Shown here: positions 18,183-47,223 of the stretch, one piece after another
Layout: every line of letters starts with the position of its first letter
Position numbering within the stretch: the first letter of the stretch is position 1
Assembly (NCBI GenBank): GCA_949282195.1
Contig: CASDOW010000005.1
Location: 1 to 64,000 of the forward strand
Origin: an uncultured bacterium
GTDB lineage: Bacteria; Cyanobacteriota; Vampirovibrionia; Gastranaerophilales; Gastranaerophilaceae
Reading direction: 5' to 3'
Length of the DNA: 64,000 nt
Made by a program: the position numbers and the translations under genes
The notes under the pieces: generated by a model
The model's database searches: none
What the model was told of the DNA's origin: nothing
The model's input: only the letters and a program-made list of their open reading frames with translations

Positions 18183-18210
18183 TAAAGTTCTTAATAAAAA
18201 ATGCCGTTAA
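18183..18210 (+). promoter_or_regulatory. Putative sigma-28 (FliA) promoter
   Basis: TAAAGTTC, a 12-bp spacer and GCCGTTAA differ by one base in each box from the FliA consensus TAAAGTTT/GCCGATAA. The spacer is one base longer than the usual 11. It lies 37 bp before the ATG at 18248. A 13-bp motif TAACTAAAAAGGT (18208-18220) follows, and it recurs with one mismatch at 46662-46674. Confidence 0.5.
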
Positions 18211-18247: not shown

Positions 18248-18499
18248 ATGATTAGTTTCAACGGCGGGGATTACTTACAATACTTTAGAGCAAGCCAACA
18301 AGAAAGCAATACACAAATTACAAAAAAACCAAACGTGCTAACCAACCAAGAAGCAAACAAGCTACAAGAAGAAATTTTAGAATTTCATTCTTCAAGAAAC
18401 TCTAATAAAGCTCTTGAAGAAGCAACATCAAACATGCTGGATGAAAGTCTTGCAAATGAAGTTGCAACAGCTCTAAACAGAAATGAATGGTTTGCTTAA
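18248..18499 (+). CDS. Small polar hypothetical protein under a putative FliA promoter
   Basis: An 83-residue glutamine/asparagine/glutamate-rich protein, predicted helical, with no signal peptide, membrane segment or known domain. The only aromatic cluster is GGDYLQYF near the N-terminus. An in-frame GTG at 18239 is an alternative start, 7 nt after a TATATT. No clear ribosome binding site is seen for the ATG at 18248. The stop codon overlaps that of the convergent zinc-ribbon gene. The sigma-28-like promoter suggests a link to the flagellar late-gene programme. Confidence 0.55.
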   Translation: MISFNGGDYLQYFRASQQESNTQITKKPNVLTNQEANKLQEEILEFHSSRNSNKALEEATSNMLDESLANEVATALNRNEWFA

Positions 18500-20582: not shown

Positions 20583-20993
20583 TTATTTTAAAATAATCAA
20601 ATTACTTACTGTAGGATGTTTTATATCTTTAACAGCTTTATAGCAGGTATGAACAACCGAATCATAAGTAACGGGCTCTAATTTTGCAGTTTTATTTAGC
20701 GCAATATTGGCATAATCTCCGTTTAAAGAGGTATATTCGGATTCATTATATGCTTTTATTCTTGCAGAAAAAGGGTGCTTGATACCTGACTGCATTGTAA
20801 TAATCACAGGGGTATTTCTATTATCGTTAATAAATTTAATATTGTAAAAATAATAACCGTCGATTTCAGAAACACTGTCCATATCCAGTGCAACATTTTT
20901 TCCGTTAGGCGTTACTAAATTTACCCATTCAATAGCAAAAACATTTACTTGATTAAATAGCAAAAACAAGACTAAACACAAAAACCTTTTCAC
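20583..20993 (-). CDS. Secreted hypothetical protein under a putative FliA promoter
   Basis: A 136-residue protein with an N-terminal signal peptide (cleavage after about residue 20). The mature part is beta-rich (WVNLVTPNGKNVALDMDSV and so on) and recalls small adhesin-E-like periplasmic domains, though only by pattern. It starts at a GTG with GGAGGA 6 nt upstream. Its promoter is the best sigma-28 match in the window (TAAAGTTT-N11-GCCGACGT), so it may be co-expressed with late flagellar genes. Confidence 0.65.
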   Translation of the reverse strand: MKRFLCLVLFLLFNQVNVFAIEWVNLVTPNGKNVALDMDSVSEIDGYYFYNIKFINDNRNTPVIITMQSGIKHPFSARIKAYNESEYTSLNGDYANIALNKTAKLEPVTYDSVVHTCYKAVKDIKHPTVSNLIILK

Positions 20994-21021: not shown

Positions 21022-21048
21022 ACGTCGGCAAAATTGCAAAAAACTTTA
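21022..21048 (-). promoter_or_regulatory. Putative sigma-28 (FliA) promoter, best match
   Basis: On the minus strand, a perfect TAAAGTTT (21048-21041), an 11-bp spacer and GCCGACGT (21029-21022). The predicted start near 21015 leaves a leader of about 22 nt with GGAGGA before the GTG at 20993. It overlaps the divergent rmuC promoter. Confidence 0.6.
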
Positions 21049-21062
21049 GAAAAAGATATAAT
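21034..21062 (+). promoter_or_regulatory. Promoter of rmuC
   Basis: TTGCAA (21034-21039), a 17-bp spacer and TATAAT (21057-21062). The -35 box lies inside the spacer of the opposing sigma-28-like site, so the two promoters probably exclude each other. Confidence 0.6.
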
Positions 21063-21088: not shown

Positions 21089-22072
21089 TTGCAAGGCTAC
21101 ATTTCAACAAGCGTAATATTTTTTATATTAGGTTTTTTATGTCACTTTTTTCTTGTTAAATTCAAAAAAGAAAATTCGACACTTTTTATACTCTTAAACG
21201 ACTTTAAAAAATCTATTGATGATTATAAATTACAAAATGAACTAAATACAAAAGAAGTAAAAGACGCAATAAAATCATCACAAGAGCTGGTTAAAATCTT
21301 AACCACAAATCAAAATCTAAAAGGTCAATATGGTGAAGATTGCCTTGAAAACGTCATCAAAACAATTTACCCTCAAGAAAATATAAACTATATTAAACAA
21401 TTTGAAACACAAAACGACGAAAACAAAACAATAAGACCCGATTTTTTAATTAAATTACCTAATAACAAATCAATTATAATAGATTGCAAATTAAATCTTG
21501 AAAAATATATCGACTACAAGGAATGCTGTGACGAAATAAAACTCCAAAAGAAAAATGACTTTATTAAAGACTTAAATTCAACCATTAACAACCTTGCAAA
21601 CAAAAAATATGCAACTGCAACACATATAAATCAACCAAATTTCATTTTAATGTATATACCCTTAGAACCGGTATTAACCCTAATATACACAGATAAAGAC
21701 TTTTTAGGCGTAATTAAAAATTCTCAAGAAAAAAATATAATAATTGTGGGTAATTCATCTGTATTGACCACAATTAAACTGGTTAAACTTCTTTGGGCGC
21801 AAGATACACAAGAAAAAAATATTGAAGACATAATAAACATTTCGCAAAACATCTATGAATTAATTGCTCAACATTCTCAAAATCTCCACAAAATAAAAGA
21901 ACAAATGCAAAACAATGTAGATTTATTTGACAAAGAATATAAAAAACTAACACAAGAAAATAAAATCTTCAAATCTGCTCATATGCTAAAAGAATATGGC
22001 ATAAAACCTCTAAACAAAAGAACAGGCAAAAAACTAAACGAAATAACAATTCATAACGATTTTTTAAGTTAA
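21089..22072 (+). CDS. rmuC: RmuC-family DNA recombination protein
   Basis: A 327-residue protein with an N-terminal membrane anchor (residues 5-24), a coiled coil, and the RmuC nuclease-like core (LKGQYGEDCLENVI, IRPDFLIKLPNNKSIIIDCKLNLEKY). The core D-x-K motif is that of restriction-endonuclease-like folds. RmuC proteins limit DNA inversions in E. coli; the exact activity is unproven. The TTG start has AAGGAG 7-8 nt upstream. It is shorter than E. coli RmuC. Confidence 0.88.
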   Translation: MQGYISTSVIFFILGFLCHFFLVKFKKENSTLFILLNDFKKSIDDYKLQNELNTKEVKDAIKSSQELVKILTTNQNLKGQYGEDCLENVIKTIYPQENINYIKQFETQNDENKTIRPDFLIKLPNNKSIIIDCKLNLEKYIDYKECCDEIKLQKKNDFIKDLNSTINNLANKKYATATHINQPNFILMYIPLEPVLTLIYTDKDFLGVIKNSQEKNIIIVGNSSVLTTIKLVKLLWAQDTQEKNIEDIINISQNIYELIAQHSQNLHKIKEQMQNNVDLFDKEYKKLTQENKIFKSAHMLKEYGIKPLNKRTGKKLNEITIHNDFLS

Positions 22073-22135: not shown

Positions 22136-22342
22136 ATGGAAATCATTAAATTACTTAAAGATTACCCCAAAACAAGACGACAAAAAGCATTGAGCACTTA
22201 TTTAATACAAGAGCTTGATACCCAAATTTGTCGTGAAAAGATAAAAAACAAGAAATTTATGATTAAATATCTTCAACCGATTAATGATTTCATAATCCAT
22301 ACAACAGCACTTCCATGCTGTAATGTCAGAAGAATGTTTTAG
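22136..22342 (+). CDS. Small basic hypothetical protein
   Basis: A 68-residue lysine-rich protein with three cysteines, two of them adjacent near the C-terminus (LPCCNVRRMF). There is no signal peptide or known domain. It lacks a ribosome binding site but has TATATT exactly 6 nt before the ATG. Its stop codon overlaps that of rnhA on the other strand. It could be a chance reading frame; the regular promoter spacing is the main support. Confidence 0.4.
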   Translation: MEIIKLLKDYPKTRRQKALSTYLIQELDTQICREKIKNKKFMIKYLQPINDFIIHTTALPCCNVRRMF

Positions 22343-29391: not shown

Positions 29392-30138
29392 ATGCAAAAA
29401 ACATCGGAATTATTTATTCAAAACATAAGAAATCTTCCTATATGGGTTAAACAGGTTATAACCAAAGAAATACTAGAAGACCTTAGAAAAAAACTGGATG
29501 AATTCTCTCAATTGGTTGAAGAGGATGATTTATTTCAATATATGTGTCCGAAATTAACCTTTAAAGGCAAACAAGAGCTTCAAGAAAGAAATCTAAGGCT
29601 ATCTGAAGGTTATTACATATTTTTAAAAGATTTATCCGAAGAAAACAATATATTTGAAATCACTGTTAAAAACAACTGGACTTTTGCTGATAGTGCAAAA
29701 ATATTTTGCAGATTAAATGAACTTGAATTCCTGCAAATAGATGACTATTTAACAAATAAAAATATTGCACTTGCCCTTTTTATTGCCGGAAAAATAAAAA
29801 CAGGCGAATTTCTAAAAAGAATTGGTAAAATTAACGCAATTCAATTAGAACAAGCAATCCGCTATCAAAAAAAACTAAACGAAGAAGGTCGACACATCAA
29901 AATGGCAAGCATACTCATTAAAATGGGTTTTATAACGGATAAAGGACTTGATAGCCTTCTTTTATTAAAAGATGAAGCCAAGAAACATTTATCTTTTGGG
30001 GTTGGGTTGACTTCAGTAAAATTGCCGGATGGCTCTCAAAGTGACGATCAAATTATAAGACTGCAAAGAGAAATTGCGCGTTTAGAAAACGAAAATATTA
30101 TAATGAAAAAACGTCTTAAAAAACTTCTAAATCTGTAA
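29392..30138 (+). CDS. Hypothetical protein with a type II secretion ATPase N-domain-like segment
   Basis: A 248-residue soluble protein. The segment near residues 140-200 (GEFLKRIGKINAIQLEQAIRYQ, then ILIKMGFIT) follows the GspE/PilB N-terminal (MshEN) pattern of 'low-level helix, G-x-I, Q-x-x-x-A-L-x-x-Q'. The C-terminal 35 residues form a short coiled coil. It has a GGGTAG-type ribosome binding site and couples to the next gene by overlapping stop and start codons (TAATG). The function is unknown; the domain match is by pattern only. Confidence 0.65.
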   Translation: MQKTSELFIQNIRNLPIWVKQVITKEILEDLRKKLDEFSQLVEEDDLFQYMCPKLTFKGKQELQERNLRLSEGYYIFLKDLSEENNIFEITVKNNWTFADSAKIFCRLNELEFLQIDDYLTNKNIALALFIAGKIKTGEFLKRIGKINAIQLEQAIRYQKKLNEEGRHIKMASILIKMGFITDKGLDSLLLLKDEAKKHLSFGVGLTSVKLPDGSQSDDQIIRLQREIARLENENIIMKKRLKKLLNL

Positions 30139-35018: not shown

Positions 35019-35873
35019 TTAAAAGAAACTTGGCTTTTTAACTGATTGAGTGCCTTGCATAGCTTCCCAGTTTGCAGCCATAATCTTTTTAAATGATTTT
35101 AGGGCTGTATCTTCAAGTTCGCCAAGTTCTTCTGCATTGATAATCAATTCACGAAGAGGCAACAATGCTCTTTGATCACGTAAAACACCAAGAGCAGCAG
35201 CTGCACCTGCACGAACTAAGTCGTTTTCTTTTTCATTTTTCATAACTTCAATAAGTCCGGGAACTGCCTTTTTATCGTTCAATTTGCCCAATGAAGTTAC
35301 GGCATAAATTCTAACATTTACCCATTCATCTTTTAACATGTTGATGATTTTATCAACACATTTTGGATTTCCGATTTCGCCTAACGCTCTTGTTGCATCA
35401 CAACGAACATTAACTTTTTCATGATCCAATGAAGCAATTAAAGCATCAGTAGCAACATCGCCGATTTCAATTAAAGCTTCAGTTGCAGTAATGCAAACTT
35501 GGGGATTTTCATCATTAAGAGCTTCAACTAAAGGTTCAACAACAACTTCACCGCCTAAACGACCAAGAGCACGAGCGGCACGAACACGAACATCAACATT
35601 TCTGTCTAAACGCAAAGAGTCGATTAAAGGTTGAGTTGCTGTAACATCACCAAGCTCACCTAAAGCGCGAGCAGCATATAAGCGAACAGAACCGTTTTTA
35701 TCATTTTTCAATACATCAATTAAAGGTTCAACTGCATTAAAATCACCCATTTCGCCAAGTATTCTGGCTGCATTATATCTAACTTTTTCAGAATTAGAGG
35801 TTCTTAAATCATTTACTAACTCATCAAAAGATTTCTTGCTGGATTTTTTGCGATTGTTCACACTAATTGTCAT
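35019..35873 (-). CDS. HEAT-repeat (PBS lyase-like) protein
   Basis: A 284-residue protein with about seven HEAT-like repeats of some 31 residues. They have the pattern V-R-x-x-A-A-R-A-L-G-E-x-G-D, then A-V-E-P-L-I-x-x-L, as in phycobilisome lyase HEAT-like repeats. Such solenoids bind proteins. Cyanobacterial relatives attach bilins, but no pigment genes are seen here, so a scaffold role is more likely. GGAGG lies 6 nt before the ATG. It has a very long AT-rich upstream region. Confidence 0.88.
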   Translation of the reverse strand: MTISVNNRKKSSKKSFDELVNDLRTSNSEKVRYNAARILGEMGDFNAVEPLIDVLKNDKNGSVRLYAARALGELGDVTATQPLIDSLRLDRNVDVRVRAARALGRLGGEVVVEPLVEALNDENPQVCITATEALIEIGDVATDALIASLDHEKVNVRCDATRALGEIGNPKCVDKIINMLKDEWVNVRIYAVTSLGKLNDKKAVPGLIEVMKNEKENDLVRAGAAAALGVLRDQRALLPLRELIINAEELGELEDTALKSFKKIMAANWEAMQGTQSVKKPSFF

Positions 35874-46632: not shown

Positions 46633-46659
46633 TAATTTTTTTTAAAAAACTGCCGAAAA
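46633..46659 (+). promoter_or_regulatory. Putative sigma-28 (FliA) promoter
   Basis: TAATTTTT, an 11-bp spacer and GCCGAAAA. The -10 box matches at 7 of 8 positions, the -35 box is weaker. The motif TAACTAAGAAGGT follows at 46662-46674, shared with the site at 18.2 kb. Confidence 0.4.
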
Positions 46660-46719: not shown

Positions 46720-47223
46720 ATGACAATAAGTTCTGTAAATTTAGCAATGAGCGCTTCATCATATGGAGCATACAATCAAAAATTAACTTCTGCAACAAAG
46801 GCAGAGTTAGAAAAGCTTGGAATTGTTTATGACCCAAACATCACAGAAGCTGAAGGAAAAAAATTAATTCAACAGAAAAAAACTCAAGACACTCAAAAAA
46901 ATTCACAGCAAAATTTAGGTCAAAACTCTGATAGCAACAGTCTTTTTGAAAAGGCGAAAAAACTAGCTCAAGAGCTTGGAATTAAAGTAGATGAAAAACA
47001 AAATTTTGACACATTATTGTCAATTATTGAAAGCACGCTTGAACAAAAAATTCAAGTTAATTCAACAAACGAAGAAATGCTGAAAAAACTTGAAGGCTTA
47101 AGCAGGGAACTTGCAAATATCCAAGCTCAATCAAGCGGTTCATCAGGATATAATTCAACAAACCAAGCACTTATGAAAAGTCTTGAAATGCTTTCACAAT
47201 ATAATAAAACATTTCTTTACTAA
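46720..47223 (+). CDS. Gln/Asn/Ser-rich hypothetical protein
   Basis: A 167-residue soluble protein. The N-terminus (SSVNLAMSASSYGAYNQ) is followed by a short segment with YDPNITEAEGKKLIQ, a Q/N-rich linker (residues 55-75), a helix around LAQELGIKVDEKQNF and a final coiled coil. It has no signal peptide. The YDP-N-I-T-E-A-E-G-K-x-L-I pattern looks like a conserved helix-turn unit but I cannot name it. It sits under a sigma-28-like promoter, so it may be made with late flagellar genes. Its stop codon overlaps the convergent gene's stop codon. Confidence 0.65.
   Translation: MTISSVNLAMSASSYGAYNQKLTSATKAELEKLGIVYDPNITEAEGKKLIQQKKTQDTQKNSQQNLGQNSDSNSLFEKAKKLAQELGIKVDEKQNFDTLLSIIESTLEQKIQVNSTNEEMLKKLEGLSRELANIQAQSSGSSGYNSTNQALMKSLEMLSQYNKTFLY

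Follow-up and report, generated by a model that had tools for sequence, protein, structure and literature searches.

Candidate sigma-28 promoters in the window

The window, that is, the whole 64,000-nucleotide stretch of DNA analysed here, comes from a Candidatus Gastranaerophilales bacterium and carries four sites, boxes 1 to 4, in the form of promoters read by the flagellar sigma factor FliA (sigma-28). The original prediction had proposed that they drive four uncharacterised genes made together with the flagellar filament, and re-reading of the window bore out the letters and coordinates of all four. Each box lies before one real gene, with its -35 and -10 elements separated by 11-12 bp and the -10 approximately 28-60 nt from the start codon (Table 1).

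Table 1. Candidate promoters and neighbouring genes in the window.
Feature	Position	Strand	Description
Box 1	21048-21022	-	TAAAGTTT-N11-GCCGACGT; putative sigma-28 promoter for the secreted-protein gene; score of at least 15 with the outside-trained matrix
Box 2	18183-18210	+	TAAAGTTC-N12-GCCGTTAA; TAAAG and CCG kept in L294-L297
Box 3	31762-31736	-	TAAAGAAA-N11-GCCGAATA; counterparts in four congeners
Box 4	46633-46659	+	TAATTTTT-N11-GCCGAAAA; TAAAGTTT-N11/12-[GT]CCGATA-like in 27/30 homologs
Secreted-protein gene	20583..20993	-	136 aa, signal-peptide-like N terminus
Sigma70-type promoter toward rmuC	21034..21062	+	TTGCAA-N17-TATAAT; identical in L294-L298; overlaps box 1
RmuC-family gene	21089..22072	+	PF02646, 171 bits; divergent from the box 1 gene
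83-aa leaderless protein gene	18248..18499	+	start moved from GTG 18239 to ATG 18248
47-aa conserved small ORF	31704-31561	-	downstream of box 3
167-aa leaderless protein gene (46720 family)	46720..47223	+	homologs in 56/146 family genomes

The pattern TAAAG-N14..16-GCCG occurs four times in the window for 0.70 expected (1 of 100 shuffles equalled this count), one occurrence, at 35439, being inside an ORF and not one of the four boxes. With a matrix trained outside the own genome, four window sites reached a score of at least 15 for 0.65 expected, namely boxes 1, 2 and 4 and a site at 22156, and box 3 scored 8.3; among 305 other upstream regions, scores of 8 and 12 are reached by 1% and 0.3%, respectively. 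When the plain E. coli consensus was used, with no trained matrix, each of the four gene sets gave its highest mean match with the two elements 11 or 12 bp apart. Over the own genome, no excess of the loose pattern TAAAG-N13..15-GCCG was found (40 matches versus 43 in the reversed control); the count alone therefore proves little, and the argument is carried by the conservation of the boxes and by the strict pattern described below.

Several candidates were set aside. The site at 22156 (+; TAAAGATT-N12-GACGACAA, score 15.6) is inside a 68-aa ORF (22136-22342, +) and was not taken up. A site before the flaG ORF (29428-29403, -; TTATGTTT-N12-TCCGATGT) has similar sites in three congeners and falls within a divergent ORF (29392-30138), so that its conservation may be coding. 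A first covariance model (R1), for which 150 of 7082 candidates were scored, gave mostly local matches, many of them within genes.

The original prediction had set conservation in relatives as a test, and it was found for all four boxes, which keep an 11-12 bp gap upstream of the orthologous genes; for box 1 this is limited to the nearest species. For box 4, a TAAAG-N11/12-[GT]CCGA-like site lies 53-87 nt before the match start in 27 of the 30 scanned homologs of the 46720 family, a count made with a matrix fitted to those same sequences; an independent check of this set with the E. coli consensus gave means of 11.97 (gap 12) and 11.33 (gap 11) of 16, against 9.6-10.4 for other gaps. In front of some homologs of this family, the stretch from the -10 to the start also contains an inverted repeat resembling TTGACTTA...TAAGTCAA (upstream regions L072, L073 and L082). 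The gene behind box 2 has orthologs 70-82% identical in the four nearest relatives (L294-L297), and a search of 146 family genomes gave no homolog of it outside its own genome; the box is present in all four relatives as TAAAG-N14/15-CCG and is kept in all five sequences while the flanks differ. At the same position in L298, a different small ORF is preceded by TAAAGCAA-N11-ACCGATAT, as read from the sequence. Box 3 faces away from the long ORFs, and an early view that it points at no gene was abandoned when it was seen to face into a conserved 47-aa ORF. This ORF is 54-60% identical in G107, G127 and G057, a similar one occupies the equivalent place in G084, and the box is present in all four congeners having it, in the forms TAAAGAAA-N12-GCCGAATA, TAAAGTTT-N11-GTCGACAA, TAAAGATT-N12-GCCGAGAA and TAAAGTAT-N12-GCCGTATA.

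The case of box 1 is more intricate. The four nearest relatives (L294-L297) retain its form TAAAGTTT-N11-G[CAT]CG, which is absent from the more distant congeners compared, several of the remoter ones having TTGCAA-N16/17-TANAAT (sigma70-type) toward the secreted-protein gene in its place. Furthermore, the -35 of box 1 sits within the spacer of the conserved rmuC promoter, and GCCGACGT has a poor -10 tail. These features are in agreement with box 1 being a by-product, its GCCG coincidental and its conserved letters part of the sigma70 promoter of rmuC, a reading that we take seriously and nevertheless find somewhat doubtful: G-N-CG forms an island of identity across the five nearest species with differing flanks, these species have no sigma70 -10 toward the secreted-protein gene, and a gap of 11 fits best for the box 1 set. 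Box 1 looks like a lineage-specific switch, though some of its conservation could be due to the rmuC promoter alone. An early view of the box as spurious was dropped once nearer relatives were found. Named the best site in the original prediction, box 1 is the best-scoring of the four and also the least clean; it is conserved in the four nearest species only and looks evolutionarily the youngest. The palindromic TTGCAA at 21034-21039, which is the -35 of rmuC, also fits in the more distant congeners as the -35 of the divergent secreted-protein gene, in which case two sigma70-type promoters would use one -35.

Searched against Pfam and NCBIfam, the boxed proteins, the 136-aa one included, gave nothing at or above the curated cut-offs. 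The predicted model of the 136-aa protein has a mean pLDDT of 77, and a fold search of this model against the PDB gave nothing at E <= 0.001, Haemophilus protein E ranking first with E 0.32. Its seven named relatives come from six Candidatus Gastranaerophilales bins and one uncultured bacterium.

The sigma factor and its candidate regulon

The absence of a fliA gene would have spoken against the original prediction. One FliA/WhiG-family sigma factor was found above the cut-off in the own genome (C21:1796-2458; TIGR02479, 243.2 bits for a cut-off of 189.6), together with eight other matches to the sigma family. Compared with PDB sequences, it matches best 6pfv and 6pfj (189 and 185 bits), named "RNA polymerase sigma factor" in the table and presumably the Streptomyces factor WhiG; an entry named FliA follows with 149 bits. 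With the sigma factor present and the boxes conserved, the resemblance of the boxes to sigma-28 promoters of four uncharacterised genes stands, and their assignment as candidate sigma-28-type promoters is well supported.

The distribution of this sigma factor does not follow that of flagellin. It is above the cut-off in 140 of the 146 family genomes; flagellin was found in 59 genomes, and 83 of the 87 without it keep the sigma factor. The own genome is flagellated, with five PF00669 matches and a flagellar FlhA. Among the 56 genomes with a 46720 homolog, 44 have no flagellin match, and a box-like site precedes 22 of the 23 scanned homologs from flagellin-less genomes. Most of the flagellin genes sampled are without the strict box; a weaker TAAAG-N11-TTCG-like form was seen before 11 of 29 sampled family flagellins and before one flagellin match of the own genome. 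The proposal that the boxed genes are made together with the filament is not supported in that form, the sigma factor and the boxes both occurring in flagellin-less genomes, and a sigma-28 regulon independent of flagellin appears well supported by this distribution.

Beyond the window, the strict pattern TAAAGTTTN{11,12}KCCGA gave 120 matches in 27 genomes versus 48 in the reversed control (binomial p ~1e-8, computed with 122 versus 49), and the 19 flagellin-less genomes scanned accounted for approximately 100 versus 37 in the control. Outside ORFs of at least 100 aa were 104 of the 118 distinct strict sites, most of them 20-75 nt before recurring families. Clustering of 93 downstream proteins, three of which were added from the window, yielded 13 clusters with at least two members, led in size by SASQARF (17), MALSVSQ (9), a TPR family (8), whose members are mostly 315-343 nt downstream of the box, and the 46720 family (7, the window's own included). 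According to a simple heuristic, 82 of the 93 proteins are without a signal-peptide-like start, and some boxed genes, those of the TPR family and of box 1, have signal peptides. What the strict boxes precede is for the most part leaderless families that recur, mainly in genomes without flagellin.

A second FlhA-type export gate

PF00771 (FHIPEP) was found in 145 of the 146 family genomes, in two score classes. The flagellar class (848-885 bits) is confined to flagellin carriers, and the second (approximately 715-736 bits) is found in flagellin-positive and flagellin-less genomes alike. The own genome holds both, at C5:76879 (866 bits) and C6:31421 (719 bits). Against PDB sequences, the flagellar gate scored 559 bits with FlhA versus 435 with the low calcium response protein; for the second gate the two scores were similar (434 and 422 bits, respectively). 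In the loci inspected, the second FlhA/SctV-type gate is accompanied by FliE, FliF and FliH homologs: it is preceded in G000 by SLT, FliE, FliF-like, unknown and FliH ORFs, the FliF-like one being assigned by position and likeness to homologs, in G145 by SLT, FliE, FliF, unknown and FliH ORFs, with FlhB further upstream, and in G073 by FliE, FliF, unknown and FliH. FlhB was seen only in G145, which is flagellated. Homologs of rod proteins are found close to the sigma gene in the flagellin-less genomes G073 (by Pfam match), G006 and G076 (both by eye), and in G076 a SASQARF-type protein adjoins the apparatus operon.

Upstream of the second export operon itself the search revealed no box; in its 20-kb piece, the sole site scoring at least 11 is inside the FliF-like ORF. 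Since the sigma factor and the second gate are both near-universal, their co-occurrence cannot link them. Two side observations were made during this survey. A third FHIPEP match, to the C-terminal half of the profile only, is a 483-aa ORF (153.8 bits; L278:1146-2597, -; G000:C6:15173-16213). In L159:10955-15311 (G021:C2), a 1017-aa ORF with a Cas9 RuvC-like start is followed by 307-aa and 115-aa ORFs resembling, by eye, Cas1 and Cas2.

Role of the regulon and comparison with known systems

As the boxes are preserved in relatives, including many without flagellin, the switch appears to work for a machine that is not the flagellum but resembles it. The explanation that we favour, with moderate confidence, is a sigma-28 regulon uncoupled from flagella and probably tied to the second export apparatus. 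Three steps could be envisaged: (i) RNA polymerase carrying the FliA/WhiG-type factor of C21 would bind the four boxes, each driving the transcription of one short gene; (ii) the sigma-28 regulon of Gastranaerophilales would be more than a flagellar late-gene set, persisting in flagellin-less species with largely leaderless proteins; and (iii) it would control when the second flagellum-related type III export apparatus, through which some products may be exported, is supplied with substrates, chaperones or structural parts. The service of the regulon to this machine is plausible, and the leaderless state of the boxed proteins does not prove type III export. In a broader formulation, offered tentatively, nearly all Gastranaerophilales, flagellated or not, would have a second basal-body-like type III machine, independent and not a remnant, with substrates switched by the FliA/WhiG-type factor and including the leaderless SASQARF, MALSVSQ and 46720 families.

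The regulon could also be driven by sigma-28 with products unrelated to type III export, for example in a developmental or surface programme, as for WhiG in Streptomyces. Both the closer match of the sigma factor to 6pfv/6pfj than to E. coli-type FliA and the signal peptides of some boxed genes are consistent with this view, which we judge rather unlikely: the boxed proteins are mostly leaderless, the second gate is near-universal in the family and one boxed-type family adjoins it. A classical flagellar late regulon, of which flagellin-less relatives would keep a decaying remnant, would agree with the flagellated state of the own genome, with the weaker box of some flagellins and with the interpretation of partial flagellar sets as loss by Soo et al. 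2014 (PMC4040986). It appears improbable in view of the retention of the sigma factor and the excess of strict boxes in flagellin-less genomes, and of the recurrence of most boxed genes as full-length families; moreover, single genomes contain both the flagellar FHIPEP class and the second one, which is therefore not a remnant of the first. A chance origin of all four boxes within the AT-rich gaps, as the loose genome-wide count might suggest, is very improbable given the same-spacing equivalents before orthologous genes in several species, the excess of the strict pattern and the rarity of such scores in the other upstream regions.

The preferred explanation, a regulon uncoupled from flagella, would show a sigma-28 switch, and perhaps a flagellum-like export machine, outliving the flagellum in a gut lineage that is mostly flagellin-less among the sampled genomes. 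It also provides a concrete promoter pattern with which uncultured gut bacteria related to cyanobacteria can be searched for that machine's products. No description of a flagellum-uncoupled sigma-28 regulon or apparatus of Gastranaerophilales was found in the open literature, most subscription journals being outside the scope of the search.

The system resembles the FliA class III regulon of E. coli and Salmonella by its TAAAGTTT-N11-GCCGATAA-type boxes, its FliA-family sigma factor and the short distance to the start codon. Several features set it apart: gaps of 11 and 12 are equally common, the -10 frequently opens with T, genomes without flagellin keep the regulon, and the strict box is missing from most sampled flagellin genes. 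WhiG of Streptomyces belongs to the same FliA/WhiG family and is a flagellum-independent use of such a factor; unlike in Streptomyces, no sporulation programme is known in Gastranaerophilales. In Chlamydia trachomatis, sigma-28 is likewise kept in a non-flagellated bacterium with type III export genes. Its regulon was defined by Hatch and Ouellette 2023 (PMC10597470) as two genes, hctB and tsp, whereas the regulon here takes in numerous genes and families and belongs to another lineage. Finally, most Gastranaerophilales genomes were found by Soo et al. to hold only a subset of flagellar genes, which was read as flagellar loss. Our data indicate that this subset includes a separate export-gate class coexisting with the flagellar one, and the reading of these partial flagellar gene sets would shift from decay to a possibly working apparatus.
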